From: Comamonadaceae bacterium
Lineage (GTDB): Bacteria; Pseudomonadota; Gammaproteobacteria; Burkholderiales; Burkholderiaceae_C
Length of the DNA: 45,131 bases
Assembly (NCBI GenBank): GCA_947476015.1
Contig: CANJOS010000005.1
Coordinates: forward strand, 1-45,131
Reading direction: 5' to 3'
Shown: positions 10,273 to 35,166 of the stretch, piece by piece
How the letters are laid out: each line of letters begins with the position of its first letter
Numbering within the stretch: the stretch's first letter is position 1
Program-made: the position numbers and the translations under genes
Notes under the pieces: model-generated
What the model saw: only the letters and a program-made list of their open reading frames with translations
Database searches by the model: none
What the model was told of the DNA's origin: nothing

Positions 10273-11469
10273 GGAGATTGACGGGATTTGAAGCGCATCG
10301 TACTCAAACAACCAGTCGTAACGGGTGCGAACTTTTTCTGGCGCCCATTCAGAGGAGACATAGCTGACCGCTTTGGCATCATCAGACAATTGAGGATTGT
10401 GAAATCGCAAGGCATTGTCGCTGGATCGATTCACAATGTCAGCGGTGCGCTGCCAACGCAAAGATTCAAATTGAACAAATGCCTCTGAAACCTGCGAGTG
10501 TGCCGCTAAGCACCGCGCCATCACTGCCGCGTCCTCAAGGGCCATGTTGGCACCTTGTGCCAGAAATGGCAAGGTAGGATGCGCGGCATCGCCGATCAAA
10601 CAAACAGCACCCTGAGCCCACCCTTTTTGAGGTGTTCGGCCTAACAATGCCCACTTAAAGGGTTGCTCAATTTTTTGCATCAATTCAAGCACATCGGGAT
10701 GCCAATGACCAAAATCTTTCAACAACTCTTCATGACTCCCGCGCTCGTTCCATGAGTCACTTCGCCAACCATCTTTCTCCACAATGCCCACCACGTTCAT
10801 GAGTTGTCCACCGCGAACTGGATAGGTGATGACGTGAGCGCCCGGTCCCACCCAATTGGTACCCACTTGGGCTTGCAGATGCGCTGAAATATGCTGAACT
10901 GGCACCAAACCTCGCCATGCCAACAAGTCAGTGAAATGAGCTTTGTCTTCGCCCAAAAGTTGTTCGCGCAAAACAGAATGAACACCGTCGGCTGCGATCA
11001 AACCTTCAGCCACATGTGAAGTGCCGTCTTGCAAATCAAAAGTCACGCCAACCGAGGTGCTTTGCGCCGACACGACGCGTGCATTCAATTGGACCGGCCT
11101 GTCCGACCTGGCGGCATAAACATCCAGCAGCACCTTGTGCAAATCACCGCGATGCACCAGCCAATATGGCGCGCCAAATCTCACCATACAATCATTGCCA
11201 AGGTCAAACAATTTCCATCGTTGACCCGTGTTCCACATTCGAATTTCTTTGCCGCTGGCTTCGCAAACCAAGCCTTGCAAGGCTTCTCTCAAGCCTAAAT
11301 CGATCAAGATACGTGAGCCATTGGGAGAGATCTGCAAGCCAGCACCCACCTCGGCCAGGTGGCTGGCTTGTTCATAAACATCAACCTTGAAACCCTGCTG
11401 TAACAATGCAAGGGCTGTGGCCAAACCGGCAATGCCTGCGCCTGCAATGGCAATCCGTCTGTCGGTCAT
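10252..11469 (-). CDS. FAD-dependent (class A) aromatic monooxygenase, salicylate/3-hydroxybenzoate 6-hydroxylase-like
   Basis: RIAIAGAGIAGLATALALLQQGFKVDVYEQ, GAGLQISPNGSRIL, CLIGDAAHPTLPFLAQGANMALEDA. Start at ATG 11469 overlaps the upstream gene stop as ATGA; 3' end overlaps rquA 3' end. Confidence 0.88.
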   Translation of the reverse strand: MTDRRIAIAGAGIAGLATALALLQQGFKVDVYEQASHLAEVGAGLQISPNGSRILIDLGLREALQGLVCEASGKEIRMWNTGQRWKLFDLGNDCMVRFGAPYWLVHRGDLHKVLLDVYAARSDRPVQLNARVVSAQSTSVGVTFDLQDGTSHVAEGLIAADGVHSVLREQLLGEDKAHFTDLLAWRGLVPVQHISAHLQAQVGTNWVGPGAHVITYPVRGGQLMNVVGIVEKDGWRSDSWNERGSHEELLKDFGHWHPDVLELMQKIEQPFKWALLGRTPQKGWAQGAVCLIGDAAHPTLPFLAQGANMALEDAAVMARCLAAHSQVSEAFVQFESLRWQRTADIVNRSSDNALRFHNPQLSDDAKAVSYVSSEWAPEKVRTRYDWLFEYDALQIPSISSALNHC

Positions 11470-12464
11470 TCCGCTTTGATGTTGTTGTCTTTGGCGACTT
11501 GGGTCCATAGCTGGATTTCTTGTGAGATAACTTTGGCAAAATCAGCGGAGGCTCCTCCGACAGGCTTGATGTCCAACTTGCCCATTCTTTCTTTCACATC
11601 AGGCATGGCCATGATGCGTGCAACTTCTTCTTGAACACGTTTCACAACCACTGGCGGCGTACCAGAAGGCGCCAGCAAACCACTCCAAAAATTCACTGAC
11701 AAATCAACGCCTTGCTCTTTCAGGGTGGGCACTTGGGGGTATGCGGCCAAGCGCTGCTCGGATGTCACAGCCAATGCTCGCAATTTGCCAGCCTTCAACA
11801 AAGCGGCAATGGGGCCCGAATCAATCAGTGTCATTTGTACTTCTTGGGTGAGCACTGCATTGATAGAAGGCGCGCTGCCTTGGTAAGGCACATTCAAAGC
11901 TTTCAGGCCCGTTTGCGTTTTGATCAACTCCATGACCAACTGAAAGGAAGCTGAGGGATGCGAGTAATTGAACTTGCTGGGATTGGCTTTGGTGAGATTG
12001 ACCAATTCTGAAAATGTCTTGGCACTGGAAGCCTCGTTGACCGCCAAAATCATGGGAAATGAACCCACCAAGGAAATTGGCATTAAATCGGTCACAGGGT
12101 TGTAGGAGAGCTTGGCCACCAGAACAGGGTTGAACACAATGGGACCACTCGCCGCCATCAACAAGGTGTAACCATCGGGTGCAGACTTGGCCACCAACTC
12201 GGTCCCAATTGCAGCGCCAGCGCCCGGTTTGTTCTCAACCACCACAGGCTGGCCCAATGCAGGCGCCAATTTTTCGGCCACCACGCGCGCCAAAATATCA
12301 TTGGCACCGCCAGGGGCGTAAGGCACCACAATTTTCACCGACTTGGTCGGCCACGCAGCTTGCGCAAGCGCAAAAGTGGGAACCCAAAAAATAGCGACAG
12401 CACTCAACAAGAGTGCCATGCGCTTGCTTGGCAAGACTGCAGTTGAATCAGTTGTTTTCATCAA
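11466..12464 (-). CDS. Tripartite tricarboxylate transporter (Bug/TctC family) substrate-binding protein
   Basis: Signal peptide; WPTKSVKIVVPYAPGGANDILARVVAEKL, VVVENKPGAGAAIGTELVAKSAPDGYTLLMA. Confidence 0.93.
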   Translation of the reverse strand: MMKTTDSTAVLPSKRMALLLSAVAIFWVPTFALAQAAWPTKSVKIVVPYAPGGANDILARVVAEKLAPALGQPVVVENKPGAGAAIGTELVAKSAPDGYTLLMAASGPIVFNPVLVAKLSYNPVTDLMPISLVGSFPMILAVNEASSAKTFSELVNLTKANPSKFNYSHPSASFQLVMELIKTQTGLKALNVPYQGSAPSINAVLTQEVQMTLIDSGPIAALLKAGKLRALAVTSEQRLAAYPQVPTLKEQGVDLSVNFWSGLLAPSGTPPVVVKRVQEEVARIMAMPDVKERMGKLDIKPVGGASADFAKVISQEIQLWTQVAKDNNIKAE

Positions 12465-14210: not shown

Positions 14211-15197
14211 TTACTTCTGGTAAAGCCCGGCTGCTTTCACAACCGGCAGCATCTGTTTAAGTTCGGTTTCAATTCTTTGACGAACCACCTCGGGTCCTGC
14301 GCTGTCACTTTCATGGCCCAGTTTGCTGTACGCCTCCCGCGTGGCAGGCATTTCCAAATACTTTTTCAATTCTTGGGAAACGCGCGCCAGAATGGCTGGC
14401 GGTGTTTTGGCAGGGGCAAAAAGGGCCAGCCAAATTTCAAACTCCGTGCCTGGGTAACCCGCCTCAGCCAGCGTTGGGACGTCTGGCATGAAACGCGATC
14501 GCTTCTGCGATGCGACGGCCAAGGCCCGCAAACTGCCCGCTTGAATCTGCCCCTTCACAGGTGCCAAATCTGCCATCGCCATGACCACACGGCCCGTGAT
14601 CAGGTCTGAAACTGCCGGTGGGAAACCTTGGTACGGCACATGAATCATGTCCACACCAGCGCTTTGTGTCAGCATAGCGGTACCCACATGTCCCATGCCG
14701 CCGATGCCATTGCTGGCGTAGGGCAAGAGACCAGGTTTGTTTTTGGCATCGGCCATCAACTCCTTGACAGTGTTGTAGCGATTTGAAGTGGCAGTGACGA
14801 GATAAAATGGCAAGCGAGAGACCATGCCGACAGGCGCAAAGTCGGTCAAGGAATCAAATGGCAATTTGCCTGGATGGGTGAGCGGCAACAAAGCCATGGT
14901 AGAGCCACCAGCCAGCAGAAACGTATAGCCATCAGGTGCTGCACGCGCCACCATTTCAGCGCCAATGACTGTGCCGCCACCAGGTTTTGGATCGGTCAAG
15001 ACTGACTGACCCAGCACGGTGGTCAAGTGCTGCGCAACCAGACGCGCCGCGGAATCTACGCCACCACCTGCAGGGTAAGGGACCACAATTCGAATGGGCT
15101 TGGAAGGCCACTCTTGCGCTTGGGCCGTCAGCGACAAACAAAATGTGATGAGACAAATAGAACAAATGGAAAAGGAGCGCAAAAACTTCAGACGCAT
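14211..15197 (-). CDS. Bug/TctC family substrate-binding protein
   Basis: WPSKPIRIVVPYPAGGGVDSAARLVAQHL, DPKPGGGTVIGAEMVARAAPDGYTFLLAG; likely start MRLKFLRSF at 15197. Confidence 0.92.
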   Translation of the reverse strand: MRLKFLRSFSICSICLITFCLSLTAQAQEWPSKPIRIVVPYPAGGGVDSAARLVAQHLTTVLGQSVLTDPKPGGGTVIGAEMVARAAPDGYTFLLAGGSTMALLPLTHPGKLPFDSLTDFAPVGMVSRLPFYLVTATSNRYNTVKELMADAKNKPGLLPYASNGIGGMGHVGTAMLTQSAGVDMIHVPYQGFPPAVSDLITGRVVMAMADLAPVKGQIQAGSLRALAVASQKRSRFMPDVPTLAEAGYPGTEFEIWLALFAPAKTPPAILARVSQELKKYLEMPATREAYSKLGHESDSAGPEVVRQRIETELKQMLPVVKAAGLYQK

Positions 15198-15378
15198 ATA
15201 AAACCATTCTGTGAATGCAAACAGCCCAGAAGGTAGCACGAGTGCTGGCTTGGCGGAATGATGAAAACCCCAATTTCAGGCCGACGACACTGACCAATTT
15301 AAGAAGCCTGAATCCGTTCAATTACTGATTGCAATGGAGACCATGCGCGACTAGAGTACGGGCTCCTTAGGAGACCTT

Positions 15379-16368
15379 ATGCACACCATTTCAGTTCGTT
15401 GGTTTCGTTGGCTTTCAAGTTCAATTTTGGCCATCATCATGGTATTTTCAGCTGGCGCACAAACCACTGACTACCCAACCAAGCCCATCAAAATTGTGGT
15501 GACATTTCCACCGGGCGGCAGTTCTGACGCCATCGTTCGCATTTTGTCTACCCGTCTGAATGACAAATTAGGCCAAGCTTTGGTGATTGACAACAGGCCC
15601 GGTGCAGGCGGCAACATTGGTTTGAGTGCCGTGGCCAAGGCTGCGCCGGATGGTTACACGCTAGGTGTTGGCGCTGCGGGTGGTTTGACGGCCAATTCAA
15701 GCCTTTACCCCCAAATGCCTTTTGATGTCGCTAAAGATTTTTCACCCATCACCATGTTGGCGGCCATTCCCTTTGTCTTGGTGGGACACCCCTCCGTGCC
15801 AGCAGACAATATGCAACAACTCATTGCACTGGCGAAGTCGCAGCCCGGCAAAATTGCCATTGGCCATGGCGGCAACGGGACGGCCATGCATTTGTCAACG
15901 GCACTCTTCACGCAAATGGCAGACCTGAAACTGATTGAAGTGCCCTATCGTGGCTCAGGTCCTGCCGCCATGGATGCCTTGTCTGGTCAAATTCAATTGT
16001 CCATGACAGACTTGGCTGCAGCACTGCCCCACATCAAGGCAGGCAAGCTCAAAGCCTTTGCAGTGACCAGTCCCAAACGTTTGAGTAATTTACCCGATGT
16101 GCCCACCCTCGCTGAAAGTGGACTTGCAGGCTACGACGCCACTGGATGGTTTGGCTTGGTCGCACCTGTGGGCACCTCGCCGCAAATTATTCAGAGGCTT
16201 CACACTGAATTTGCTGCGGCCTTGAACGATGAATCCTTGAAAGCTCAAATGCGTCAAAATGGCATGGAACCGATTGTCACAAGCGTTGAAGGTTTCGAAG
16301 CCTACATCAAAAGCGAAACACAAAAATGGGCCAAGGTCATTCGACAAGCCAACATCAAACTGAACTGA
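15379..16368 (+). CDS. Bug/TctC family substrate-binding protein
   Basis: YPTKPIKIVVTFPPGGSSDAIVRIL, IDNRPGAGGNIGLSAVAKAAPDGYTLGVG. Confidence 0.93.
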   Translation: MHTISVRWFRWLSSSILAIIMVFSAGAQTTDYPTKPIKIVVTFPPGGSSDAIVRILSTRLNDKLGQALVIDNRPGAGGNIGLSAVAKAAPDGYTLGVGAAGGLTANSSLYPQMPFDVAKDFSPITMLAAIPFVLVGHPSVPADNMQQLIALAKSQPGKIAIGHGGNGTAMHLSTALFTQMADLKLIEVPYRGSGPAAMDALSGQIQLSMTDLAAALPHIKAGKLKAFAVTSPKRLSNLPDVPTLAESGLAGYDATGWFGLVAPVGTSPQIIQRLHTEFAAALNDESLKAQMRQNGMEPIVTSVEGFEAYIKSETQKWAKVIRQANIKLN

Positions 16369-18083: not shown

Positions 18084-18482
18084 TCAGTTGTCGATCACCA
18101 AATCGGGGGCCACCCTCCTAACACGGTGGTCGACATAATAGCCTCCATATTCGGTGTACTTCAGCACCGCGCAACGGCAGTTGCTACAGGCGTAAACATC
18201 GCATCGGTTGTAGGGAAAGTAGGGAGGTGCAATGGGTGCATTTGCCGAATCGTATCGGGTGCCCTGTGGGTGATACTCTTCAAAACTCAAGTCCATTTGC
18301 CCTTCAGGCAAAGGCGTGCGCAGTGTGCCTTCAAGTTTCAATTGATAGGCTGGCCAGCGCTCATCGCTCACACTTTCCCATCCATCACAGATTTTGAGCG
18401 AACAATTGCAAGCTGAAGTTTTTCGCTGGCCCAATGCTTTGAGTTCAGCCCCTGTCATCGGCTTCTCCGATGGGAGGGTCAT
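18084..18482 (-). CDS. Uncharacterised Cys-rich small protein
   Basis: 132 aa; ACNCSLKIC and CDVYACSNCRCAVL clusters; start overlaps the stop of the bicupin gene (ATGA). Confidence 0.6.
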   Translation of the reverse strand: MTLPSEKPMTGAELKALGQRKTSACNCSLKICDGWESVSDERWPAYQLKLEGTLRTPLPEGQMDLSFEEYHPQGTRYDSANAPIAPPYFPYNRCDVYACSNCRCAVLKYTEYGGYYVDHRVRRVAPDLVIDN

Positions 18483-19210
18483 GTGCCGAGTGAAGGGAAT
18501 TGCAAAACGAGCACTTCGACGCCCTCAGCGCCAGCCTTTGCATTCAAGGTATCTTCAGGCGGCACGTGGACCACAGAGAGTGCCGGGCTTTGACCCGCAG
18601 TAGACTCCAAGACGCCATCAGTGATCACAAAAAATCTACCGCCGTGTATTTTTTCAGTGGGCAAATTCAAGGTTTCACCTGCTGGCAATCGAAACAATTT
18701 AGCAGACAAGCCATCTTCTCTCAACGAAATCAAGTCTTGTTCTTGCGAAGTTTTGAGCGCTGACAGTGCCGTCTCTCGAATGCCGTCTTGAGGTTCGCCG
18801 TGCTGCTGCTCGCGCTTCAGACCCTTTTGCATGCGCTCTCTAGAACCGGGCTTGTGCAAGTACCAGGCGCCTGTATCGCCTGTGGCACGAAGGGTGAGGT
18901 AGGACACGCCCGCTGGCCCGGCTTGTATCGGACCGTAGCCCGTCTCCGGCGCAGCGTAGTGGACCGTTAAGGGTGCAACAGGGTGTCTTCCAATGGCGCC
19001 ATCTCCCGCCACAACCACTTGAAATTGATGCTCCAAATGAAAATGCGAAGGCGTGCTCCAATGGGGCAATTGCTCCACTAAAAAAGCTTGGGCACCCGCT
19101 TGTCGAATTTCATGCGTGGCAATGAAGTCCGTCACGCTGCCTTCAAAGGTATCTTTGCGAACCGTTTTTTTTGAGGCTCGGGCATCCAGCGAGTTTTGAA
19201 TTTGGATCAT
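18479..19210 (-). CDS. Bicupin-like protein
   Basis: PHWSTPSHFHLEHQFQVVVAGDGAIGRHPV cupin motif; second half (LFRLPAGETLNLPTEKIHGGRFFVITDGVLES) looks like a second cupin. Confidence 0.65.
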   Translation of the reverse strand: MIQIQNSLDARASKKTVRKDTFEGSVTDFIATHEIRQAGAQAFLVEQLPHWSTPSHFHLEHQFQVVVAGDGAIGRHPVAPLTVHYAAPETGYGPIQAGPAGVSYLTLRATGDTGAWYLHKPGSRERMQKGLKREQQHGEPQDGIRETALSALKTSQEQDLISLREDGLSAKLFRLPAGETLNLPTEKIHGGRFFVITDGVLESTAGQSPALSVVHVPPEDTLNAKAGAEGVEVLVLQFPSLGT

Positions 19211-19216
19211 TTCAAT

Positions 19217-19876
19217 TCAGCGCTTGGCTTTCACCATGGCCATGACCAACTCAGCCACATGATCGGCAGTCTCATTTTTGCTCAAGCGACCATCAGGGCG
19301 ATACCAAACATAGGACCAACTGATCAAGCCGCCAATGGACAATGACGTGAGTTTCACATCATCGACTTGAAATTCGCCATCTTTGACGCCTTGTTCGAGC
19401 AATGCACAGAATTTACGATCAAATTCTCGGCGCATTTTTTGGATGGCCTTGCTACTTTCGGGTGAAAGATGTTTTTCTTCTCGCGTGTAAATGGCAATGT
19501 GACTTTGGTTCTCAATCACGGCCATCATGAAATCATGTGCCAACACACGCAACTTGACCGTAGGCGAATCTTTGGAGGCCACCACACGGTCTAGAACATC
19601 CAAGGAAGCGCGAATGCCGCGTGAGCAAATTTCCGACAACAATTCGTTTTTGGATTTGAAGTGGGTGTAAATGAAGGGCTTGGTGACATTCATCTGCTCG
19701 GCCACTGCGTCGAGCGTGGTGTTGGTCAAGCCATTTTGGTTGAACAACTCTAGCGCAGTAGAAATGATGCGTTCACGTTTAAGTTTGGTGACCGCATCCC
19801 GAATATCATCAATGGGCGGCGACGAAGATGACGTTGTTTTCTTAGCCGTTTTAGCAGGCGCTTTGACTGTGTTCAT
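19217..19876 (-). CDS. TetR/AcrR family transcriptional regulator
   Basis: RERIISTALELFNQNGLTNTTLDAVAEQMNVTKPFIYTHFKSKNELLSEI is a canonical TetR HTH. Confidence 0.93.
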   Translation of the reverse strand: MNTVKAPAKTAKKTTSSSSPPIDDIRDAVTKLKRERIISTALELFNQNGLTNTTLDAVAEQMNVTKPFIYTHFKSKNELLSEICSRGIRASLDVLDRVVASKDSPTVKLRVLAHDFMMAVIENQSHIAIYTREEKHLSPESSKAIQKMRREFDRKFCALLEQGVKDGEFQVDDVKLTSLSIGGLISWSYVWYRPDGRLSKNETADHVAELVMAMVKAKR

Positions 19877-19904: not shown

Positions 19905-20309
19905 TTATTTCATTTGCGGCTCAAACAGCCACTCCAAGTCACCCCGGCTGTTGTCATAACGGCCTTGAACTCTCAAACCAATGGTCAACGGAAGGTCACC
20001 TTTCCAAATGCCCAAGGATCTCACGCCCTCGTCCAAGTCAACCGTGACCAGTGTGTAGGGCACATCGGCGGCAAAGCCAGCATGGAATGCATGGTGGCAG
20101 CGTGTCCAACTGTGAACAACCCCCAAGCCTGAGGAGTTTTGCCAAAAGTGTTCATGAGAATAACACTGGGTGCACAGCATCCGGGGATAGTGCCGGACCG
20201 TGCCGCAAGATGCACAAGTTTGCAGCACCAGTCGGCCCTGCGCCGCCGCATCCCAAAAGGCTTGTGTCATGGGGCTAGGTTGGGGAATGGGTTTGGAGAC
20301 TGCGTTCAT
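19905..20309 (-). CDS. DUF35 Zn-ribbon/OB-fold protein (ChsH2-like), thiolase partner
   Basis: FWDAAAQGRLVLQTCASCGTVRHYPRMLCTQCYS then OB fold GVVHSWTRCHHAFHAGFAADVPYTLVTVDLDEGVR. Confidence 0.88.
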   Translation of the reverse strand: MNAVSKPIPQPSPMTQAFWDAAAQGRLVLQTCASCGTVRHYPRMLCTQCYSHEHFWQNSSGLGVVHSWTRCHHAFHAGFAADVPYTLVTVDLDEGVRSLGIWKGDLPLTIGLRVQGRYDNSRGDLEWLFEPQMK

Positions 20310-20313
20310 GTTG

Positions 20314-21468
20314 TTAAGCTTTTCTCATAATCGCCAAAGCGCCATCGCCCATGTCGCCATAACCTGTCACAAGGCCAACTTCTGCACCTTTGACTTGGGC
20401 TGCACCACCATGGCCGCGCAACTGGCGTACCAATTCAACCACGTGATTCAAGCCCCAAACATGCCCTTGGGACAACAAGCCGCCATGGGTGTTGGTGGGC
20501 AAGGCACCGCCTAGTTTGAGCCGACCCCCTTCCACAAAAGCACCTCCCTCCCCTTTGCCACAAAAGCCCATGTCTTCAAGCTGGCGGATGACTGCGTAGG
20601 TAAAGCAGTCATAGATTTCAGTCACGTCGATGTCGGCATGCGTGACACCGGCCATTGCGAAAGCCCGCTTGGCTGCTTTGCCAATGCCCAGGCTCGTCAT
20701 GTCGGGGCGCTGGGTGATAGCACCGGGAGAATCGGGGTGACCTTCGGCCACGCCTGCAATGTAAACCTTGGGTTGAGCCATGTCACCAGCACACTCTGAG
20801 GCACTCACAATGACTGCCGCACCACCATCGCTTTCCAAACTGCAGTCCAGCAGCCGAAAGGGATCGGAAATCATGCGGGAATTGAAGTGATCTTCCAAGG
20901 TCATGGGTTTCTTCATCACCGCGTTGCCATTCAGCAAAGCATGTTCACGACAGGCCACCGCAACCTCACCAAATTGCTTCACGGTGGTGCCATAAAGTTC
21001 CATGTGACGTCTGGCCATGGGGGCATACAACTGCGCAGGTGCAATGGCACCCATGGGGTACTCAAATTCAGTCACATAGTGAAATTGCGGCATGTTGTGA
21101 ATGCGAGCCCCTGCCTTGTTCGAGCCCATGCTCACATTGCGACCAAAGGTGATCAGCACATGACGGCAGACCCCGGACGCAACGGCAGCAGCAGCACATT
21201 GAAGCGCCATGACAGGGCTGGCGCCACCATGCGGAATAACGGCAGAAAAGCGCAAATCGGGAATGCCAAAATTTTCGATAAAGTCATCGGCTGTGCCACT
21301 GACAATACCGACTGGAATCACACCATCAATGTCAGTCGGCTTCAGTCCAGCATCTGCAATGGCCTTCAGCGAAGACTCAATTTGAAGTTCAAAAGCCGTT
21401 TGGGTTGAACCTCGCATGTAGGTGGTTTCACCGATGCCTGTGACACAGGCTTTGTCTTTAAGGCTCAT
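20314..21468 (-). CDS. Thiolase-superfamily protein, SCP2/Ltp2-like, apparently lacking the nucleophilic Cys
   Basis: ACVTGIGETTYMRGSTQTAFELQIESSLKAIADAGL, EIYDCFTYAVIRQLEDMGFC, NTHGGLLSQGHVWGLNHVVELVRQLRG; position of the catalytic Cys reads IPHGGASPVMALQ. Confidence 0.87.
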   Translation of the reverse strand: MSLKDKACVTGIGETTYMRGSTQTAFELQIESSLKAIADAGLKPTDIDGVIPVGIVSGTADDFIENFGIPDLRFSAVIPHGGASPVMALQCAAAAVASGVCRHVLITFGRNVSMGSNKAGARIHNMPQFHYVTEFEYPMGAIAPAQLYAPMARRHMELYGTTVKQFGEVAVACREHALLNGNAVMKKPMTLEDHFNSRMISDPFRLLDCSLESDGGAAVIVSASECAGDMAQPKVYIAGVAEGHPDSPGAITQRPDMTSLGIGKAAKRAFAMAGVTHADIDVTEIYDCFTYAVIRQLEDMGFCGKGEGGAFVEGGRLKLGGALPTNTHGGLLSQGHVWGLNHVVELVRQLRGHGGAAQVKGAEVGLVTGYGDMGDGALAIMRKA

Positions 21469-21482
21469 ATTGATCCTTCATC

Positions 21483-22805
21483 TCAATGCTGCGCCGCTCG
21501 TTGGCGCTCGCGCGACATTTGTTGCCGGTAAAAAACAGGGTCTAACTCAAGCGCATAGCGAACGCTCTTGGGGTAATGCCTTCTCAAAAACGCTTGTTCT
21601 TCGTCCATTGTTTTTTGCATCTGTTCGCTTGAGGGTACTTTGTAATTGCCACTCACCATGTCGCTGATCCATTCAGCCTGATCGTCCATCATGCGAATGT
21701 TGCCACCCCCAGCCACATTGAACATACCCGCAAAGAACAGATTTTTTTGTGTGGGATGAACCACGCGCAAGAAAAGATCGAGGTGCCCCTTGTGAAAGGG
21801 TGCCAGTGCCGAATCGAGAAATGGCAAATCAACCTGATAACCTGTTCCAGCAATCACGCAATCAAAGCTTTCTTGCGTGTCATCTGTGAAGGTCACCGTT
21901 TGACCCTGCACTGTTTTGATGCCAGGTTTGGCACGCACGCGGTTCCACACAAAGTGCGCCATCAAACTGGGATGACTGGTGGGGTGTGTTCGCGACTTCG
22001 GGGTGACAAATCCCCACTGCTCCATGGTGCCGTGCACAATGCGCGTTAAAACTTCGCGAATGGTGCGCCGAACAGGCCAAGGCATCCAGGGTTTTTCCAA
22101 TTTGGCCAAGACACGCGAGGTGGGAACACCAAACAAAACGCGCGGCATGACCAAAACGGGTGATCTTGCGGAAATCACCGTGGCCTTGGTCATGGTGCAA
22201 ATATCGGAAGCTATGTCGACGGCGCTGTTGCCCATGCCCACGACCAACACACGTTTGTCGCGAAAGGGTTCTGGCACGCGGTAATTGTGCGCATGCAAAT
22301 ACTCGCCCTTGAATTCAGAAGCCCACTCAGGATGCAGGGGCTTGCCTTGGTGGCCCGTACCAATGACCACGGCATCAAAGTGCTCTGCTGCTTTGCCTTT
22401 GACCGTGACGCTCCAAGATTGATCCTGGGCCTCCAATTTCACAACAGGTGAATGGAAGCGGATGTGAGGCAACAGCTGAAATTTTTCAGCGTAAGCTTTC
22501 AAGTAACTGTGGACCTGCCAATGATCAGGGTAAAGGGGCGTACCTTCTGGGAACGGGAAATCTTGATAGGCCGTGACACGGGCCTCAGAATTCAAATGCA
22601 AAGAACGATAGGCTGGGCTGATGCCGTTGTCGTTTTCATAGACCCACAGCCCCCCCACGTGAGATCCCATTTCAAAGACCACCACGTCATGTTGCTTGGC
22701 CAGCAAATGTTTGGCTGCACACAAGCCAGCAGCGCCAGCACCAATCACAGCCACTCGTTTTTGAGAAGTGGGTTGCATGTGCGTCATCATCAAGCTAATT
22801 TGCAA
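21483..22805 (-). CDS. Flavin-containing monooxygenase (class B FMO)
   Basis: VAVIGAGAAGLCAAKHLL, FMO fingerprint FKGEYLHAHNY, VLVVGMGNSAVDIASD; start may be the internal ATG at 22778. Confidence 0.88.
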   Translation of the reverse strand: MQISLMMTHMQPTSQKRVAVIGAGAAGLCAAKHLLAKQHDVVVFEMGSHVGGLWVYENDNGISPAYRSLHLNSEARVTAYQDFPFPEGTPLYPDHWQVHSYLKAYAEKFQLLPHIRFHSPVVKLEAQDQSWSVTVKGKAAEHFDAVVIGTGHQGKPLHPEWASEFKGEYLHAHNYRVPEPFRDKRVLVVGMGNSAVDIASDICTMTKATVISARSPVLVMPRVLFGVPTSRVLAKLEKPWMPWPVRRTIREVLTRIVHGTMEQWGFVTPKSRTHPTSHPSLMAHFVWNRVRAKPGIKTVQGQTVTFTDDTQESFDCVIAGTGYQVDLPFLDSALAPFHKGHLDLFLRVVHPTQKNLFFAGMFNVAGGGNIRMMDDQAEWISDMVSGNYKVPSSEQMQKTMDEEQAFLRRHYPKSVRYALELDPVFYRQQMSRERQRAAQH

Positions 22806-22812
22806 TCAGAGA

Positions 22813-23976
22813 TCATGCGGTGGTCTTGGGAGCGCGCGGTAAAATAGCATTGCCAATGATTTGCCTCATGACCTCTGCCGTACCACCGCCCAAACGGCAC
22901 ATGCGGGCGTCGGCAAATGCGCGCGCAATGGGGTATTCCCACATGTAACCCCAGCCACCAAAAAACTGCAAGCACTCGTCCATGACCTTGCCTTGAAGTT
23001 CGGTGGTGACCAACTTAGCGCAAGCCGCATCGACTGCATCAAACTCGCCCTTCAAATGCATTTCAATGCATCGATCGACAAACACACGCTGCGTGAGAAC
23101 CTCTGCGGTGAGAGATGCCAATTTGAATCGGGTATTTTGAAAATCCCCCAAAGTGCCACCAAACATCTTCCGATCTTTGACATAGTCTTTGGTCCACTCA
23201 AGAGCCGCTTCTGAACTGGACACACCGCGAATAGCTTGGACCAAACGTTCTTGCGCTAACTGCGTCATGAGCATCGCAAAGCCACCGCCTTCGGAGCCCA
23301 ACAAATTTTCAACGGGCACATGGACATCGGCAAAGAAAAGCTCTGAAGTGTCTTGCGCCTTGCAACCCATTTTTTCCAACTTGCGACCGCGTGTAAAACC
23401 CTTTCGATTGGTTTCAACCAAAATAAGGCTGACGCCTTTGCCGCGGGCTTTAGGATCCGTCTTGCAAGCCAACACCAGCAAATCTGCGGTATGGCCGTTG
23501 GTGATGAACACTTTTTGTCCATTGATGACGTAGTCATCACCATCGCGAATGGCTTGCGTCCGCATGGCTTGCACATCACTGCCACCGGAGGGCTCGCTCA
23601 TGCCCAAAGCGGCAATGACTTCACCCGTGGCCATTTTGGGCAACCACTTGCGCTTTTGTTCTTCGGTGCCAAAGTCAACCAAATAGGGTGCGACGATGTC
23701 TGAGTGCAAATAGAAGGTAGGGCCGGTAGCACCAGCGCGGGCCATTTCTTCAATCAAGACAGCGCTGTGCAAAAAGTCGCCACCCAAACCGCCGTATTCT
23801 TCAGGAACATTGCAGCATAGAAGTCCAAACTCACCCGCTTTGAGCCATAGTTCTCGCGGCACTTGGCCCTCTTTCTCCCACTGGGCGTGAAAGGGGGTCA
23901 CATGTTCTTCAATGAAACGTCTGACGGTGTCGCGAAAGAGTTCGTGATCGGGGCTGAATATCTGTCGTGGAATCAT
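22813..23976 (-). CDS. Acyl-CoA dehydrogenase
   Basis: GMSEPSGGSDVQAMRTQAIRDGDDYVINGQKVFITNG, QERLVQAIRG, QFFGGWGYMWEYPIARAFADARMCRLGGGTAEVMRQII. Confidence 0.94.
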   Translation of the reverse strand: MIPRQIFSPDHELFRDTVRRFIEEHVTPFHAQWEKEGQVPRELWLKAGEFGLLCCNVPEEYGGLGGDFLHSAVLIEEMARAGATGPTFYLHSDIVAPYLVDFGTEEQKRKWLPKMATGEVIAALGMSEPSGGSDVQAMRTQAIRDGDDYVINGQKVFITNGHTADLLVLACKTDPKARGKGVSLILVETNRKGFTRGRKLEKMGCKAQDTSELFFADVHVPVENLLGSEGGGFAMLMTQLAQERLVQAIRGVSSSEAALEWTKDYVKDRKMFGGTLGDFQNTRFKLASLTAEVLTQRVFVDRCIEMHLKGEFDAVDAACAKLVTTELQGKVMDECLQFFGGWGYMWEYPIARAFADARMCRLGGGTAEVMRQIIGNAILPRAPKTTA

Positions 23977-23983
23977 TTCAATC

Positions 23984-25201
23984 TCAGGTAGATGGGATCA
24001 GGGGATGGCAAGGGCCGCCTTCGGCAATCCATTTTTCAATCATCGCGTCTTCAAAGCCGCACTCTTTCAATATTTCTGCAGTGTGCTGGCCCAGCTGGGG
24101 CGGCAGGCGATCAACGTGCGTATCAGCGCCACTCATTTGAATGGGCACGCGCGGAATGCGCAAAGCTCCCTCCGTGGGATGCTCCCGAATTTCCCAGAAG
24201 TTGATGCTCTTCAAATGAGGATCATCGACCAAATCTTCTAAGCTGTTGACCACAGAAAATGGAACATCTTCAGGGGTCAGCAATGCCAGCCACTCCGCAT
24301 TGGATTTTCGCGCTACTTGGCGCTCAATTTCATCCCACACGTGACGGAAATTTTTCTGTCGTGCTGCAAACGTTGAAAAGCGTTCGTCTGCCATGATTTG
24401 TGCTTCACCCGCCAGTTCAAAAAATCGCTTCCAATGCGCATCAGAATAGGGTAGCAATGCCAAGTAACCGTCCAGTGTTTTATAGGGGCGGCGCGAAGCG
24501 GAACTCACAGGTTCATACCCCATCGCTGCCATGGGCGGCTCAAAGGCGTATCCCCATTGGTGTTCCATCATGTTGAAAGCCGCCATGGTTTCAAACATGG
24601 CCACATCGACATGCTGACCGACACCCGTTTGGTAGCGCTGCATCAATGCCATGGCAATGGCCCAAGCGGCATGCAAGCCACTGATTTTGTCGGCAATGAT
24701 GGTGGGAATAAAGCGGGGCTGCCCAGCGACCACCGTTTGCAATCGTGCCAAGCCAGAGGCCGCTTGAATGATGTCGTCATAAGCGGGGCGCCCCCCATAC
24801 AAACCATCATCGCCATACCCCGCCACATGACAGTAAATCAGACGTGGATTCTTGGCTGACAAACTGGCGTAGTCCAAGCCCAAACGATTGGCGGCGTTGG
24901 TACGCATGGAATGCAGAAGGACATCTGTTTCAGATACGAGTTTGTGCAAAATTTCTCGGCCTTCTTGCGTTTTCAAATCAACCACAATAGAGCGTTTGCT
25001 GCGATTGCTTGTGAGGAAAAAAGCACCCATGCGAGGGGTTCGACGGGGGCCGATGGCGCGCGTCAAATCACCCTCTGGGGGTTCGAGTTTGATCACATCA
25101 GCGCCCATGTCACCCAGGTACTGACCCGCCAAGGGGCCAAAAATCATGGACGCGATCTCGAGAACACGAATGCCTTCAAGGGGTCTGGTTTTTTTCATCA
25201 C
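23984..25201 (-). CDS. CaiB/BaiF (family III) CoA-transferase
   Basis: PLEGIRVLEIASMIFGPLAGQYLGDMGADVIKLEPPEGD, NRSKRSIVVDLKTQEGREIL. Confidence 0.95.
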   Translation of the reverse strand: MMKKTRPLEGIRVLEIASMIFGPLAGQYLGDMGADVIKLEPPEGDLTRAIGPRRTPRMGAFFLTSNRSKRSIVVDLKTQEGREILHKLVSETDVLLHSMRTNAANRLGLDYASLSAKNPRLIYCHVAGYGDDGLYGGRPAYDDIIQAASGLARLQTVVAGQPRFIPTIIADKISGLHAAWAIAMALMQRYQTGVGQHVDVAMFETMAAFNMMEHQWGYAFEPPMAAMGYEPVSSASRRPYKTLDGYLALLPYSDAHWKRFFELAGEAQIMADERFSTFAARQKNFRHVWDEIERQVARKSNAEWLALLTPEDVPFSVVNSLEDLVDDPHLKSINFWEIREHPTEGALRIPRVPIQMSGADTHVDRLPPQLGQHTAEILKECGFEDAMIEKWIAEGGPCHPLIPST

Positions 25202-25202
25202 T

Positions 25203-26087
25203 TTAGAGAATGGCTACGGGAGACAAAGGACTGCCAGAAGCGCCCACAATGGGCAGTGCACTGGCCACAAACATGAAAGTGAATCGACCACTTTCAACCA
25301 AGGGGTCAAGCATCAACCCCTCCAAGAGTGGAATGCCATAATCTCGAATCAAGCACTGGTGTACGGGGAAAATAGTCCCTGGTGCGAAGGGCAAAACTTC
25401 CACGGCGAAGTTGTCTGCGCCCACAATGGCCACGTCACTTTGCGCAAGCCACAAACCGGCATCTTTGTCGATACCAGGCTCAGAATTGAAATCCACATCC
25501 GCTTTGCCTTTTTGGGACTCCAGCCAACTGGTTCGAATCAAAATAGCATCACCCTTTTGCAGTGTCACACCGGCCATCTGTGCGGCATCTTGCAAGTCTT
25601 TTCGTGTGATCACTTCCCCTGGCACCAGGCTTCTTTTTTTCAAACGAACGATGTCCAGCAGCACACCCCTTGTGACGATGGGCGGCATTTTCTCAATGCC
25701 TAATTTTTCAGCGCCCCTAAGACTTCGGATGGTGTTGCCTAAATACCCGTTGTACAACTCATCGTCATACCAAGCATGACACAAAGCATCAATGTGAGTG
25801 CCGATGTGCAATGGCATGACGACAGTGTCTTCGGCAAATTGGAAACCTCCTACGACGCGTTGCCCGGCAGCATAGTCGCCACCATCACGGTTCATAAAAT
25901 GTTGCAAACCACAACGATGTCCAGGAACAGGTGTCTTGGCGCTGAGCAATTGCGTCAAACGCAATACCTCACCAGTTTTCACCAAAGAAGATGCGTTGCG
26001 AACTTGCTCTGGCCCGATGTGATTCAGACTGCCTTTTTCATCTTCAGGACCCCAACGGCCCCAAGCTTCTTTGCTCATGACTTCCAT
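25203..26087 (-). CDS. Cyclase family protein (kynurenine formamidase-like metal-dependent hydrolase)
   Basis: LHIGTHIDALCHAWYDDELYNGY metal motif; GVLLDIVRLK; GDAILIRTSWLE. Confidence 0.88.
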   Translation of the reverse strand: MEVMSKEAWGRWGPEDEKGSLNHIGPEQVRNASSLVKTGEVLRLTQLLSAKTPVPGHRCGLQHFMNRDGGDYAAGQRVVGGFQFAEDTVVMPLHIGTHIDALCHAWYDDELYNGYLGNTIRSLRGAEKLGIEKMPPIVTRGVLLDIVRLKKRSLVPGEVITRKDLQDAAQMAGVTLQKGDAILIRTSWLESQKGKADVDFNSEPGIDKDAGLWLAQSDVAIVGADNFAVEVLPFAPGTIFPVHQCLIRDYGIPLLEGLMLDPLVESGRFTFMFVASALPIVGASGSPLSPVAIL

Positions 26088-27178
26088 CCTAGTCGAGCGG
26101 ACAAACGATTGGCCGCTTCTTTCAATGCCTGCAATGCGGGATCATCCTTGGGAAAGGCATCTGAATCCCCCATCATGGTCAACGCTAGCACAATGGTCCC
26201 GCTGGCATCAAAGACGGGAACACTGTAACCGTTCACACCTTTTTCGTTGATGTCGGCCATGATGGCGTTTTGAACATCCCCGATTCTCGCTTGTCTGACC
26301 TGCTCCAAGTGTTGGTCGACTTGGAAGGGGTTGATGAATTCTGAGCTGCCTGTTTTTTGAGCAGCCGTTATTTCAGCATCTAAATAGGGTTGTGTGAGCG
26401 ATCTGTTGGAGTAAGCGGCAAATACTTTTCCTGTGGCGGAGCCCAACAAAGGCAAAACCATGCCACAGCGCAAACGCACATCGAGAGGTTTCTTGGCTTC
26501 AATCCACCATATCAAGGTGGGTCCAAAATTACCCCACACCCCTAGACCCACTGTCTTGTCGGTTTCACGATTAAGGTCTTCAAGACAAGGACGCGCCAGA
26601 TGAATGGCATTTAAAGTGGCAACATGGCCTGAACCCACATGCTTGCCGGGCGAGTTGTCGTAGGGGTGGACCACCATGTACTTGCCAGAACCAAATGCCA
26701 AAGGTCTGCGCGTTGCATTCACGATGCGTTGAACGCGACCCAAGAACAACAAGTGATCGCCACCAGGATAGGTTTGCTCAGTTGTGCATTCCAAGTAAGC
26801 TGCACAACCCTCAATCAAGGGCACGCCACCCAAGCCCTGGGTCCAAGCCACACCCTCAAAACGGTCCAAACCAGAACGAGCAAACCGATTGGAGATGTCC
26901 ACTTGGTCTTCTGCAAGGATATTCACCACAAATCGTTGAGCATTGCTGTAGGTGCTGAAGGCCGTGGCGTTGAGGCGCAAACTCCAAACAATCAAGGCGG
27001 GGTCAAGTGACACCGAGTTGAATGAATTGGCGGTCATGCCGATGGGGTTTCCTTGATCATCCAACACAGTGATGACCGTCACGCCAGTGACGAAAGAGCC
27101 CAAACAACGGCGCAATTCAGCTGGATCAATGGGCGACAACGCGAGTTCGGTTTTGTGCGGCATTTGAATGACGGTCAT
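26075..27178 (-). CDS. Flavin reductase (HpaC/NtaB-type) fused to an IclR-type effector-binding domain
   Basis: N-terminal ELRRCLGSFVTGVTVITVLDDQGNPIGMTANSFNSVSLDPALIVWSL flavin reductase; residues ~185-367 (LEDLNRETDKTVGLGVWGNFGPTLIWWIEAKKPLDVRLRCGMVLPLLGSATGKVFAAY...INEKGVNGYSVPVFDASGTIVLALTMMG) look like an IclR C-terminal domain with no HTH. Confidence 0.87.
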   Translation of the reverse strand: MTVIQMPHKTELALSPIDPAELRRCLGSFVTGVTVITVLDDQGNPIGMTANSFNSVSLDPALIVWSLRLNATAFSTYSNAQRFVVNILAEDQVDISNRFARSGLDRFEGVAWTQGLGGVPLIEGCAAYLECTTEQTYPGGDHLLFLGRVQRIVNATRRPLAFGSGKYMVVHPYDNSPGKHVGSGHVATLNAIHLARPCLEDLNRETDKTVGLGVWGNFGPTLIWWIEAKKPLDVRLRCGMVLPLLGSATGKVFAAYSNRSLTQPYLDAEITAAQKTGSSEFINPFQVDQHLEQVRQARIGDVQNAIMADINEKGVNGYSVPVFDASGTIVLALTMMGDSDAFPKDDPALQALKEAANRLSARLGWKS

Positions 27179-27198: not shown

Positions 27199-28509
27199 TC
27201 AGCTCAGCAAGTTTTCACGAAAGGTACTGGCTTCGTAGGAGGTGCGGAAAACACCGCGCTTTTGCAAAATAGGAATCACGTGATCGACAAAATCATCCAC
27301 GCTGTCGGGATTGGTGGTCGGGCTTAAGTTGAAGCCATGGCAACCTGTTTCGCGCCAGACGCGTTCAATTTCTGTGGCCACTTGTTCAGGCGTGCCAATG
27401 ACAGGGGGAATGGCCACTGAGAGCGCCCATTTTTTGGTGACTTCTCTCAAAGTGACAGACTCACCCTTTTCGTTGGTCATGGCCGCAGCCATCAGACCAC
27501 GAGAGCCTTGGGCACTGCTACTGTCTGACAACGGTTGATCGGGATCGAATTTGCTCAAGTCGAGACCAAACACACCCGACATGCGGGCCAGGTTGGCTTC
27601 CAAAGGAATGCGCTCAATCAACTCCTCCGCACGCTGACGTGCTTCCAGCTCGGTACTTCGAACAATGGGCTGAAGTCCAAAAATAACCTTGCGCTCGGGA
27701 ACACCATATTTTTGAGCTTCAGCTTTGAGCTGGATCATGGTTTTTTTCATGCCTTCCACATGACTTTGGATGGCAAAAATAAGCTCCGCATGCTTCATCG
27801 CAAACTGCATACCTCGACCCGATGAGCCTGCTTGAAACAACATAGGGCGACCATATTCAGAGGGCAGCGTAGGGCCTACGGCCTTGCATTGAAAATACTT
27901 GCCTTTGAAATCCACACGCGTCACCTTGTCAGGATCGGCAAATTTCAAGGATTGCTTGTTTTTCAAAATGGCATCAGCCGGCACACTGTTCCAAAGCTGA
28001 TAGCAAATGTCCATGAACTCATCGGCCATGTCATAACGTTCATCATGTTCAATTTGCTTGCCAAGACCACAGGCCATGTGCTCAGCTTGACTGAAGCCTG
28101 ACACAATGTTCCAACCCACACGACCTCGGCTGAGGTAATTCAAGGTCGAGATGCGGCGCGTGGCCAAATAAGGCGAAGTGCCATTGGTCGACAAGGTGAC
28201 ACCGATGCCCAAATTTTGAGTGGCGGCACTCATCACCGCCACCAAAGGCATCGGGTCGTGATTAGGCCAGGCCACTCCCCACTCCACTGATGGCACTACG
28301 CTTTCTTTGTAAACACCATGGGTAGCAGGACTGTCTGCGAAGAACACACCATCAAAGCACCCTTGCTCTAATTTTTTCGCCAAGTGTTGCCAGTAAGCGT
28401 AGTCTTGCAAGCCCTCTAACTGCTGATCAATGGGATCAGCCCATGCTTGAAGCGTATGGGTCTGGCTGGTGTGAACCAGCATTTGCAGCAAATGCATTTT
28501 GGAGCTCAT
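27199..28509 (-). CDS. LLM class flavin-dependent monooxygenase, NtaA/DmoA/SnaA-like
   Basis: RISTLNYLSRGRVGWNIVSGFSQAEHMACG, GRPMLFQAGSSGRGMQFAMKHAELIFA typical of NtaA-type bacterial luciferase-like monooxygenases. Confidence 0.92.
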   Translation of the reverse strand: MSSKMHLLQMLVHTSQTHTLQAWADPIDQQLEGLQDYAYWQHLAKKLEQGCFDGVFFADSPATHGVYKESVVPSVEWGVAWPNHDPMPLVAVMSAATQNLGIGVTLSTNGTSPYLATRRISTLNYLSRGRVGWNIVSGFSQAEHMACGLGKQIEHDERYDMADEFMDICYQLWNSVPADAILKNKQSLKFADPDKVTRVDFKGKYFQCKAVGPTLPSEYGRPMLFQAGSSGRGMQFAMKHAELIFAIQSHVEGMKKTMIQLKAEAQKYGVPERKVIFGLQPIVRSTELEARQRAEELIERIPLEANLARMSGVFGLDLSKFDPDQPLSDSSSAQGSRGLMAAAMTNEKGESVTLREVTKKWALSVAIPPVIGTPEQVATEIERVWRETGCHGFNLSPTTNPDSVDDFVDHVIPILQKRGVFRTSYEASTFRENLLS

Positions 28510-28554: not shown

Positions 28555-29043
28555 TTAGCGAATCAAAGATCGGACGTAGGCTTCACCCAAGCCGACTTTC
28601 TTGCAGTGTTCGGTATAACGGTCTAGACGCAAAAAGACATCGTCGTAATCTACGGGATTGCCCTGTTCATCCACATAGACCAGGGGTCCCATGACATGGA
28701 ACAATGCCGTCATGTGACCCACTTTGGGGTCAATGTAGAGGGTGTGAATATGGCCCGCGGGCTCATACGCAAAACTGCCTGCAGTCGCTACCCAATCGTG
28801 TTCTTTGTAACCCCAGGCGCCATCCATGGTCCATGCTGTGACGGGGGATGCGTGGCGGTGTCGCTGAATAATGCCAGAGCCTTTGGCTTTGAGAATGCTG
28901 ATCCAACCGCCATTTGCCACATCGAACATCAAGGGACGGACCATGCCCATCTTGCCAAGGGCGTACCACTTTTCGTCTTCCACCATGACGTCGGGTTCAA
29001 ACATTTCTTTCAATGTGAAATTGGAGGGTTGAATATTGACCAT
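28555..29043 (-). CDS. Cupin dioxygenase, 2,4'-dihydroxyacetophenone dioxygenase-like
   Basis: GIIQRHRHASPVTAWTMDGAWGYKEHDWVATAGSFAYEPAGHIHTLYI; family call by resemblance. Confidence 0.72.
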   Translation of the reverse strand: MVNIQPSNFTLKEMFEPDVMVEDEKWYALGKMGMVRPLMFDVANGGWISILKAKGSGIIQRHRHASPVTAWTMDGAWGYKEHDWVATAGSFAYEPAGHIHTLYIDPKVGHMTALFHVMGPLVYVDEQGNPVDYDDVFLRLDRYTEHCKKVGLGEAYVRSLIR

Positions 29044-29121: not shown

Positions 29122-29165
29122 TTGAATAATATACCATTTGGTATTTAAAATTTACCTGCGGGTAT
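29122..29165. promoter_or_regulatory. Divergent promoter region with two 14-bp inverted-repeat operators: ATACC-ATTT-GGTAT (29131-29144) and TTACC-TGCG-GGTAT (29152-29165)
   Basis: Read directly: WTACC-N4-GGTAT twice, start-to-start 21 bp; possible plus-strand TTGAAT (29122-29127) N18 TAAAAT (29146-29151) promoter. Confidence 0.6.
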
Positions 29166-29311
29166 CATAGCGTTAACCCTAGACCCGAAAAAGATGCATT
29201 TGCACAAGCCCCGTCGCACCCGCTATCGTGAACAGGAAAAGTGACGTTACTCGCTTGCTGAGGGTTGCAAATCCCTCTATAAACGCAACACTTTATTTGA
29301 TTAAAAAACGC

Positions 29312-30395: not shown

Positions 30396-31367
30396 TTAAT
30401 CGAGCTTGGCACCCGATAACCGTACAACCTCTTTCCACTTGAGTCGCTCAGTTGCCGCAAAGGCGGCAGTATCGGCGGGCGAAGCAGAAATAGCCCGCGC
30501 TCCTGCCTGCAAGAAGCGCTCTTTCATGGCGGGTTGTGACAAGATCTCTTGAATTGCTTTTGAAAGTTTGGCTGTGATGGCGGGAGGAGTTGCGGCTGGC
30601 ATGACCAAGGCACCCCATGACGTGATCACAAAATCAGGCATGCCCGCTTCCGCCATGGTGGGAACCTGAGGAAACGTGGGCCAACGATCGGCCGACGTCA
30701 CGGCCAGCGCACGCGCACGACCTGCACGAAGCAAGGACGAATAGCTTGCCAAATTGTCAATGGCAAAGTCAATCGTTCCAGCAATGACCTCTGTATTGGC
30801 GGAGCCGCGAAACGGCACATGCACAACTTTGATACCCGACTTGAGGCCAAACATTTCGCCCGCTAAATGCGGTGTGGTGCCGACCCCTGATGAACTGAAG
30901 GTCACGCCCTTGGGTTGAGCTTTGGCCCAAGTTTTGAACTCCTCCAAAGTCTTTGCGGGATGGTCTGCAGAAACGGCAAACACATTGCAGTTCTCCCAGA
31001 AAGTGGACACAGGAACAAAGTCTTTGGCAGGGTCATAGCCCAGCTTGGAATACAAAAACTGATTGATCGACAGGGTGCCAATGGTGGCCGATCCTAGGGT
31101 GTAGCCATCTGCCGGCGAATTCATCACGGCCACCATGCCGATGTTGCCTCCTGCCCCTGTTTTATTTTCAATGGTGAAGGTCTGATTAAAGTAGCTTGTC
31201 AGTTTTTCTGCCAACAGGCGTGTCAACACATCCGAGGCCCCCCCCGCTGGGAAAAAAACCAGAATCTTGACTGGCTTTTCAGGCCATGCGGGTTGTGCAT
31301 GGGCTGTGGGGGCTAAACCCAATGCGGCCCCTAAACCTGTCACCACGATATCTCTGCGATTGAACAT
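30396..31367 (-). CDS. Bug/TctC family substrate-binding protein
   Basis: WPEKPVKILVFFPAGGASDVLTRLLAEKL, IENKTGAGGNIGMVAVMNSPADGYTLGSA. Confidence 0.93.
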   Translation of the reverse strand: MFNRRDIVVTGLGAALGLAPTAHAQPAWPEKPVKILVFFPAGGASDVLTRLLAEKLTSYFNQTFTIENKTGAGGNIGMVAVMNSPADGYTLGSATIGTLSINQFLYSKLGYDPAKDFVPVSTFWENCNVFAVSADHPAKTLEEFKTWAKAQPKGVTFSSSGVGTTPHLAGEMFGLKSGIKVVHVPFRGSANTEVIAGTIDFAIDNLASYSSLLRAGRARALAVTSADRWPTFPQVPTMAEAGMPDFVITSWGALVMPAATPPAITAKLSKAIQEILSQPAMKERFLQAGARAISASPADTAAFAATERLKWKEVVRLSGAKLD

Positions 31368-33193: not shown

Positions 33194-34198
33194 TCAGAGT
33201 GGCCAATGCCAATGAATTGGGCGAAGTCCCGCAACAGGGGACCTGAAGGTGGTGAGGGTATCGCCGGCCAAACACCCCATGTAGGCTGTGCGCAGGTCCT
33301 CACCGCCAAAGGCAATGCTGGTGATGTTGGGCAGTCGACGGCCGCGCGCACTGGATATCATGGGTCGCGTCAGTGTGCGTGTTTCAAACGCGTGTTCTAA
33401 GGCGCTGCAAGTTTCTGGCACTGCATCGTCAATGACCGTGACTTGTTTGCCCTGGGACCCTACTCGGTACAAACGATTGCTTCCCACACACACCACCCAA
33501 AAGCCACCTTCAGCATCGAGCGTCAAACCGTCGGGGAAATCGCCATCAGTGAATTGGGCTACCACCTGTTTCTGACTCAACACCAGTTGCTCTGAAAGAG
33601 CAAAACGACTGGTGCAGCGTCCAAAAGTTTCATTCACATAAAGATGGCGTCCGTCTTGGCTGACTCGACACTCATTCGTGTAATGCAACCCATCTGCCAC
33701 GATGCGAGACCCTTTTGCGTCCACCACAGAAATCCAGCCAGTAGCCGTGTCCAAGGGATAAAGATCGCCCCCATCGGCAGCGCTGACACACACCCAAACA
33801 CGCTCGTGATCGTCCACAGTAATGAAGTTGACACGCCCCAAGGGTTTGCCTTCAACTTCCATCAGCCAAGGCTGAACGCCCTCCTGAGAGGACAAGCGCC
33901 AGACCCCGCCCTCAGGGCTCAAGTTGGCCACCAAGAAGCTGCCATCCTTCATCAGGGCAATGCCATTGGGCACCAGCGTTGAAGTGTGTGACAAAAAGTT
34001 CGCAGCACCCGCTTTCAATTGCATGACCCCACCCCTCGCATCCGATACCATCAAGGCCCCGGATGAATGAGTGAGAACACACTCAGGTCGCTGTAGCCCC
34101 GAAAACACTTGGGTCAGTGAATGGGTGCTTGAATTGTCAGGATGCAAAGATTTTGAAACCGCAACCCACTCGGCAGTTGAAACAGTCATGGCTGTCAT
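33194..34198 (-). CDS. SMP-30/gluconolactonase/LRE family protein (lactonase-like)
   Basis: FSGLQRPECVLTHSSGALMVSDARGGVMQL, DGDFPDGLTLDAEGGFWVVCVGSNRLYRV beta-propeller pattern. Confidence 0.87.
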   Translation of the reverse strand: MTAMTVSTAEWVAVSKSLHPDNSSTHSLTQVFSGLQRPECVLTHSSGALMVSDARGGVMQLKAGAANFLSHTSTLVPNGIALMKDGSFLVANLSPEGGVWRLSSQEGVQPWLMEVEGKPLGRVNFITVDDHERVWVCVSAADGGDLYPLDTATGWISVVDAKGSRIVADGLHYTNECRVSQDGRHLYVNETFGRCTSRFALSEQLVLSQKQVVAQFTDGDFPDGLTLDAEGGFWVVCVGSNRLYRVGSQGKQVTVIDDAVPETCSALEHAFETRTLTRPMISSARGRRLPNITSIAFGGEDLRTAYMGCLAGDTLTTFRSPVAGLRPIHWHWPL

Positions 34199-35166
34199 TC
34201 ATCCAATGAAAGTTTCAAGCGCTGAATTATTTCTTTCCACCTCGATACATCTTGCTTGATAAGCTCTGTAGTTTTAGCGCTGTCCAGATAGGCCGGCTCT
34301 AAGCCTTTGTCGCGCAACTTGGCCTGCATTTCTGGCTCTGCCACCACCTTGGCAATGTCGTCACTGATTTTTTTCACTATGGCCACAGGTGTTTTGGCAG
34401 GTGCCACAATGCCGTACCAAATGTCGGCATCAAATCCAGCAATGCCACTTTCCACCACAGTGGGTACCTCGGGCATTCGGCCAAATCGAGTGGTGGTGGT
34501 CACGGCGAGTGGCCTCAGTCTGCCAGCTTTCACCATGCCATCAAAGGCACTCATGGCACCAAACGAAAATTGAACTTCATCGGCTACCAAAGCAGTGACA
34601 GAAGGCGCCGATCCTTTGTAGGGGATGTGCACCATGGACAGGCCCGAACGCAAGGCCAACATTTCGCCTGCCAAATGAGGTGCAGTTCCCGTGCCAGCAG
34701 AGCCATAATTTAACTTTCCATTGTTGGCTTTGGCATACGACAAGAATTCAGCGAAAGTTTTAACTGGTAATTTATCGTTCACGACCAAAACCATGGGCGA
34801 GTTGGCATAACGCGACACAGGCGAAAAGTCACGCATCAAATCCCAGTTCAAGTTTTTGTACAAGGTGGTGTTGATGGTGTATGAATTCACCAACAACAGC
34901 AAGGTGTACCCATCTGCTGGTGCCTTGGCCACAAAGTCAGCGCCAATGTTGCCAGCAGCCCCCGGCTTGTTTTCGACAACAACGGCTTGCCCCCACATTT
35001 CCGACAGGCGCTGTGCAATCATTCGAGCTGAAAGATCAGAGCCACCCGGCGCGAAACCCACAATCAGTCGAACCGGCTTGTCTGGATAAGCATGGGCAGT
35101 CAAGCTCATGCCCATCCCCAGCAAACACGCCAAGACTCCCAGTAATTTCAACACCGAGGGCTTCAT
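34195..35166 (-). CDS. Bug/TctC family substrate-binding protein
   Basis: YPDKPVRLIVGFAPGGSDLSARMIAQRL, VENKPGAAGNIGADFVAKAPADGYTLLL. Confidence 0.94.
   Translation of the reverse strand: MKPSVLKLLGVLACLLGMGMSLTAHAYPDKPVRLIVGFAPGGSDLSARMIAQRLSEMWGQAVVVENKPGAAGNIGADFVAKAPADGYTLLLLVNSYTINTTLYKNLNWDLMRDFSPVSRYANSPMVLVVNDKLPVKTFAEFLSYAKANNGKLNYGSAGTGTAPHLAGEMLALRSGLSMVHIPYKGSAPSVTALVADEVQFSFGAMSAFDGMVKAGRLRPLAVTTTTRFGRMPEVPTVVESGIAGFDADIWYGIVAPAKTPVAIVKKISDDIAKVVAEPEMQAKLRDKGLEPAYLDSAKTTELIKQDVSRWKEIIQRLKLSLDE

Follow-up and report, generated by a model that had tools for sequence, protein, structure and literature searches.

What binds the two short palindromes upstream of a cupin-headed operon in a Comamonadaceae bacterium, and which genes do they serve? 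The window, i.e., the whole analysed stretch of 45,131 nucleotides, contains two 14-bp dyads that an earlier note had pointed out and that are indeed present in the sequence, 21 bp apart from start to start, separated by a gap of 7 bp and located upstream of the minus-strand cupin gene, the ATG of which is at 29043. The note had proposed that a repressor, either a TetR-family protein encoded within the operon or an IclR-family protein, binds them cooperatively. The features under discussion are listed in Table 1.

Table 1 Features of the window that bear on the dyad pair; functions are predicted.
Feature	Position	Strand	Remarks
Operator dyad 1, cupin-proximal	29131..29144	.	ATACC-ATTT-GGTAT = ATACCATTTGGTAT
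Operator dyad 2, cupin-distal	29152..29165	.	TTACC-TGCG-GGTAT = TTACCTGCGGGTAT
Candidate cupin-operon promoter TTAACG-N16-TAAATT	29149..29176 (29176-29171, 29154-29149)	-	Comparison with G307/G308
AACCCTAG element beside operators	29175..29182	+	
Cupin, first gene of operon	28555..29043	-	PF12973
NtaA/DmoA-family FMN monooxygenase (LLM)	27199..28509	-	
Flavin reductase fused to IclR-type effector domain	26075..27178	-	
Rest of pathway operon	19905..26087	-	Cyclase, CoA-transferase III, acyl-CoA dehydrogenase, FMO, thiolase-like, ChsH2-like OB protein
TetR-family repressor	19217..19876	-	PF00440, PF17932; predicted binder of dyads
TctC-type receptors	11466-12464, 14211-15239, 15379-16368, 30396-31367, 34195-35166		PF03401

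Relatives of the cupin are encoded at 13 loci, and upstream of the orthologous operons in seven other genomes a WTACY-N4-RGTAW tandem recurs with exactly 21 bp from start to start. At the six closest loci (L064–L069) it precedes the cupin gene, and in G308 (L071) it precedes a luciferase-type gene that itself precedes the cupin. With a motif fixed from the window alone, spacings of 14 to 45 were compared in the 250 bp upstream of the seven operons. The summed best tandem matches reached 117 of 140 at spacing 21 versus 86–97 at every other spacing, with shuffle p-values of 0.001–0.002 for six operons and 0.012 for L064, the second dyad of which is degenerate. Because the distance to the start codon (34–181 bp), the flanking DNA and the divergent genes all vary while the pair stays, this comparison indicates that the 21-bp spacing is under selection, which would keep both the sequence of the pair and its phase. 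The same-face phasing that the earlier note had singled out for checking is thus a conserved property. The same variability assigns the pair to the cupin/monooxygenase operon rather than to the divergent dehydrogenase; the latter was looked for next to the sites in the relatives and not found, and its proposed control from these sites is not supported. The dyads of G309 and G310 do not form the 21-bp pair; they occur singly, flanked by ligase and thiolase genes.

Several features suggest that the dyads are operators of a dimeric repressor, as had been supposed. Dyads of 14 bp lie upstream of the operon in eight genomes, forming a short palindrome near the promoter as in TetR-type operators, and adjacent sites at one fixed spacing, as found in the seven relatives, are what binding by a pair of dimers in the manner of QacR would call for. 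The protein encoded at 19217 belongs to the TetR family (PF00440, 53.9 bits against a cutoff of 24; PF17932, 116.1 bits against 26.4). Its gene is the tenth of the same-strand run headed by the cupin, in agreement with the proposal that the repressor is encoded inside the operon it would control. Close orthologs (about 49–76%) occur in G302, G304, G305, G306 (two), G307, G309 and G310, and the nine orthologs compared, among them those of Rhodospirillales MAGs, share one and the same recognition helix, VTKPFIY.

The most telling evidence for TetR as the predicted binder comes from dyads at tetR starts. Operators at a TetR repressor's own gene, which permit autoregulation, are common but not universal. 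Such a site, a single dyad lying over TATACT-N7-ATG, is found at tetR in G305, G307 and G306b (one mismatch in the last), and also in G302, which has TACACT. The −10 box takes in the left half-site, the right one extends into the start codon, and tetR in these relatives looks like a leaderless gene. In G304, TATACT and the ATG are kept and the dyad is not; at the window's own tetR start, a PWM scan of the window found only a degenerate remnant in place of a clear dyad. These two cases speak against TetR, as does the lack of the 21-bp pair in G309 and G310. Moreover, four site-bearing genomes have a TetR ortholog and lack a close IclR ortholog, two with the tandem (G302, G307) and two with single dyads (G309, G310). 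Taken together with the invariant helix, these observations support the TetR candidate of the earlier note. As distantly related bacteria preserve the pair together with its exact spacing, it very probably serves as docking sites for the TetR encoded further down the same operon.

The promoter context was examined on both strands. The plus-strand promoter suggested earlier, TTGAAT-N18-TAAAAT, can be read at 29122–29151, but chance alone would give 0.8 such matches over this stretch, and it was rejected. In G307 and G308, the pair lies within and after TTGACA-N17-TAACTT. By comparison, TTAACG-N16-TAAATT in the window is a possible cupin-operon promoter, with the same geometry relative to the dyads and weaker hexamers; a consensus promoter scan did not report it. 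On the cupin strand, the dyads overlap plausible −10/+1 sequences. Next to the operators, five promoters (window, L066, G304, G305 and contig C43 of the host genome) have an AACCCTA(G) element that varies in distance and orientation, and ACCCTA adjoins the sites in G303, G304, G305 and the same C43. This element may bind a second factor or form part of the promoter.

The AACCCTAG element bears on the first alternative, namely that the pair is bound by some other regulator whose gene lies elsewhere in these genomes, with TetR merely a neighbour, because the element suggests a second factor acting at the promoter. We consider this unlikely. It is favoured by the MAGs G301, G303 (4.4 Mb) and G308, in which sites are present and no TetR ortholog was detected; however, orthologs not found may reflect assembly gaps, and a dyad on the tetR start itself, as in several relatives, is the usual mark of an autoregulated repressor.

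Less probable still is a dimer of dimers of the IclR-family regulator at 39904 that would span the four half-sites. Tetramers of IclR proteins do occupy tandem sites, as in the case of TtgV, and the IclR gene sits in a neighbouring pathway operon; in G308, furthermore, sites occur together with an IclR ortholog (62%) in the genome just mentioned as lacking a detected TetR. Against this, close IclR orthologs were found only in G304, G305, G306 and G308, and the site-bearing G302, G303, G307, G309 and G310 have none, so that the sites do not co-occur with the IclR gene as a TtgV-like operator should. The IclR genes of the window, G304, G305, G306 and G308 likewise have no dyad upstream. With most site-bearing genomes devoid of a close ortholog and its own promoters devoid of sites, IclR, the second candidate of the earlier note, is not supported as the binder.

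Motif counts speak to the weakest alternative. WTACCN4GGTAW occurs twice in the window versus 0.01 expected from shuffles. The genome scan that had been proposed as a check found it at three places in the whole host genome (2.8 Mb, about 79% complete; nine for the backward control pattern). Two of these are the window pair, and the remaining one, C25:2705, falls within an ORF of 270 aa and was set aside, leaving the pair as the only intergenic sites of this form in the host genome. A relaxed tandem pattern with at most two mismatches matched two places, the window and C43:14199, and the backward control none. A PWM built from other genomes' sites ranked the window pair first in the window (29.96 bits; 1.06 for the next unrelated place), these sites having been gathered with a window-seeded motif, so that the spacing test upstream of the seven operons is the more independent one. 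That the pair is a product of chance or merely structural is barely credible: palindromes do arise readily in AT-rich intergenic DNA and some copies are degenerate (L064, p = 0.012), but the tandem is found at only two places genome-wide even with two mismatches and its spacing is kept in seven genomes.

We therefore return to TetR as the binder, and hold it to be highly likely that the dyads are operators through which this protein would repress the cupin–monooxygenase–CoA operon. One TetR dimer would bind each WTACY-N4-RGTAW dyad, and the 21-bp distance, equal to two helical turns, would place the dimers on the same DNA face, probably touching. We infer their cooperativity from the fixed phasing only. 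The bound dimers would cover the −10/+1 region of the operon promoter and block it by occlusion. The run from cupin to tetR is presumably co-transcribed, and as tetR is its tenth gene, repression would also limit the repressor itself in a negative feedback; in relatives, tetR would additionally have its own, apparently leaderless promoter, with the single dyad over the −10 box and start codon. Release is proposed to be brought about by a pathway intermediate, which by analogy with MbdR could be a CoA thioester.

The site C43:14199 (L143, G000:C43, 5199–5233), the only other tandem place of the host genome, has two mismatches and is flanked by an SDR-like gene and by a LIV-type transporter operon. 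The same contig also holds BVMO, hydrolase-like and enoyl-CoA-hydratase-like genes (all C43 genes being named by similarity to window proteins or by sequence reading), orthologs of which neighbour the pathway in G303, G304 or G306. At this SDR/LivK promoter, G303 has a tandem, G304 one dyad and G306 none, and in G304 and G305 dyads also precede the CoA-transferase gene beside tetR. We predict that the C43 tandem before this pathway transporter operon is a second target, weaker as a site than the window pair. A more tentative reading, to which we give somewhat less than an even chance, is that this is an undescribed TetR with two operator grades that moves with its pathway between beta- and alphaproteobacterial lineages. 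Tight shut-off of the catabolic and transport operons would then fall to phase-locked 21-bp pairs, and the repressor would be limited by a single dyad fused to the −10 box and AUG of a leaderless tetR.

The closest functional model is MbdR of Azoarcus sp. CIB, a TetR-family protein that binds ATACN10GTAT over the −10/+1 region of catabolic promoters, represses itself through several operators at its own promoter and is released by 3-methylbenzoyl-CoA (PMC4424350). The likeness lies in the ATAC/GTAT half-sites and in the kind of repressor, a betaproteobacterial TetR for a degradation pathway via CoA thioesters. Other pathway genes are involved, however, and the inner spacing here is ATAC-N6-GTAT in a 21-bp tandem, so the window dyads are not MbdR sites; the two systems are compared here by their operators, genes and mode of control. 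AcuR of Rhodobacter sphaeroides, also of the TetR family, is leaderless and autorepressed, with an inverted-repeat operator overlapping the promoter before the ATG (PMC3017554), and offers the closest precedent for the tetR genes of the relatives. Unlike the window dyads, its operator reads TAATAGAC-N6-GTCTATTA; the repressor gene heads its operon, and the window TetR scores 27.2 bits against an AcuR model cutoff of 247 bits. Among regulators of acyl-CoA catabolism, KstR2- and FadR-type TetR proteins are sequence relatives of the window TetR (5.5e-13 for KstR2 structures and 2.2e-13 for the FadR model, with scores far below equivalog cutoffs). The known operators of these proteins differ from the present dyads. 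QacR of Staphylococcus occupies one long operator with overlapping dimers, whereas here two separate dyads are found. The title of a 2001 paper, cited in PMC4424350, describes QacR, a TetR-family protein, as binding its operator as a pair of dimers. TTHA0973 of Thermus was rejected as a motif precedent owing to its different consensus, AACnAACGTTnGTT, and no closer precedent emerged from a search of the literature for tandem TetR operators spaced 21 bp apart. The operator pair is thus real and conserved and very probably serves a TetR, an ordinary kind of regulator (cf. MbdR, AcuR, QacR), with presumed binding and inducer, and its operator code is apparently undescribed. For a monooxygenase/CoA degradation pathway that is uncharacterised and belongs to mostly uncultured bacteria, it provides a concrete regulator, an operator code and a predicted regulon. 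It also joins separate contigs of a fragmented genome in one predicted regulon, and shows cleanly how two repressor sites keep their spacing when everything around them changes.

Some further observations concern the distribution of these elements. The strict tandem was found in 3 of 401 genomes of the family. That in G103, at the end of a coding frame, falls outside this regulon. The strict 21-bp tandem of G344 (G344:C5:122235; L132 from 10235), built from the same dyad, is likewise outside it: it precedes unrelated genes, a 203-aa ORF followed by an FAD-oxidoreductase-like ORF, and may be due to chance or to a further regulator that uses this code. G307 (L070/L128) is a MAG labelled Verrucomicrobia with the cupin, a TetR ortholog (71–73%) and the tandem site, owing to horizontal transfer or a binning error. 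In the window, the reductase fusion (PF01613 + PF01614) has no DNA-binding domain; it is kept in L065–L068, whereas the shorter proteins of G306 and G308 align over the reductase part only. It is possibly a substrate-sensing reductase, like that of p-hydroxyphenylacetate hydroxylase. The 243-aa protein encoded at 18479–19210 (minus strand) has no Pfam match and has 42–43% identical copies near pathway genes in L064, G304 and G306. TctC-type periplasmic receptor genes number five in the window.
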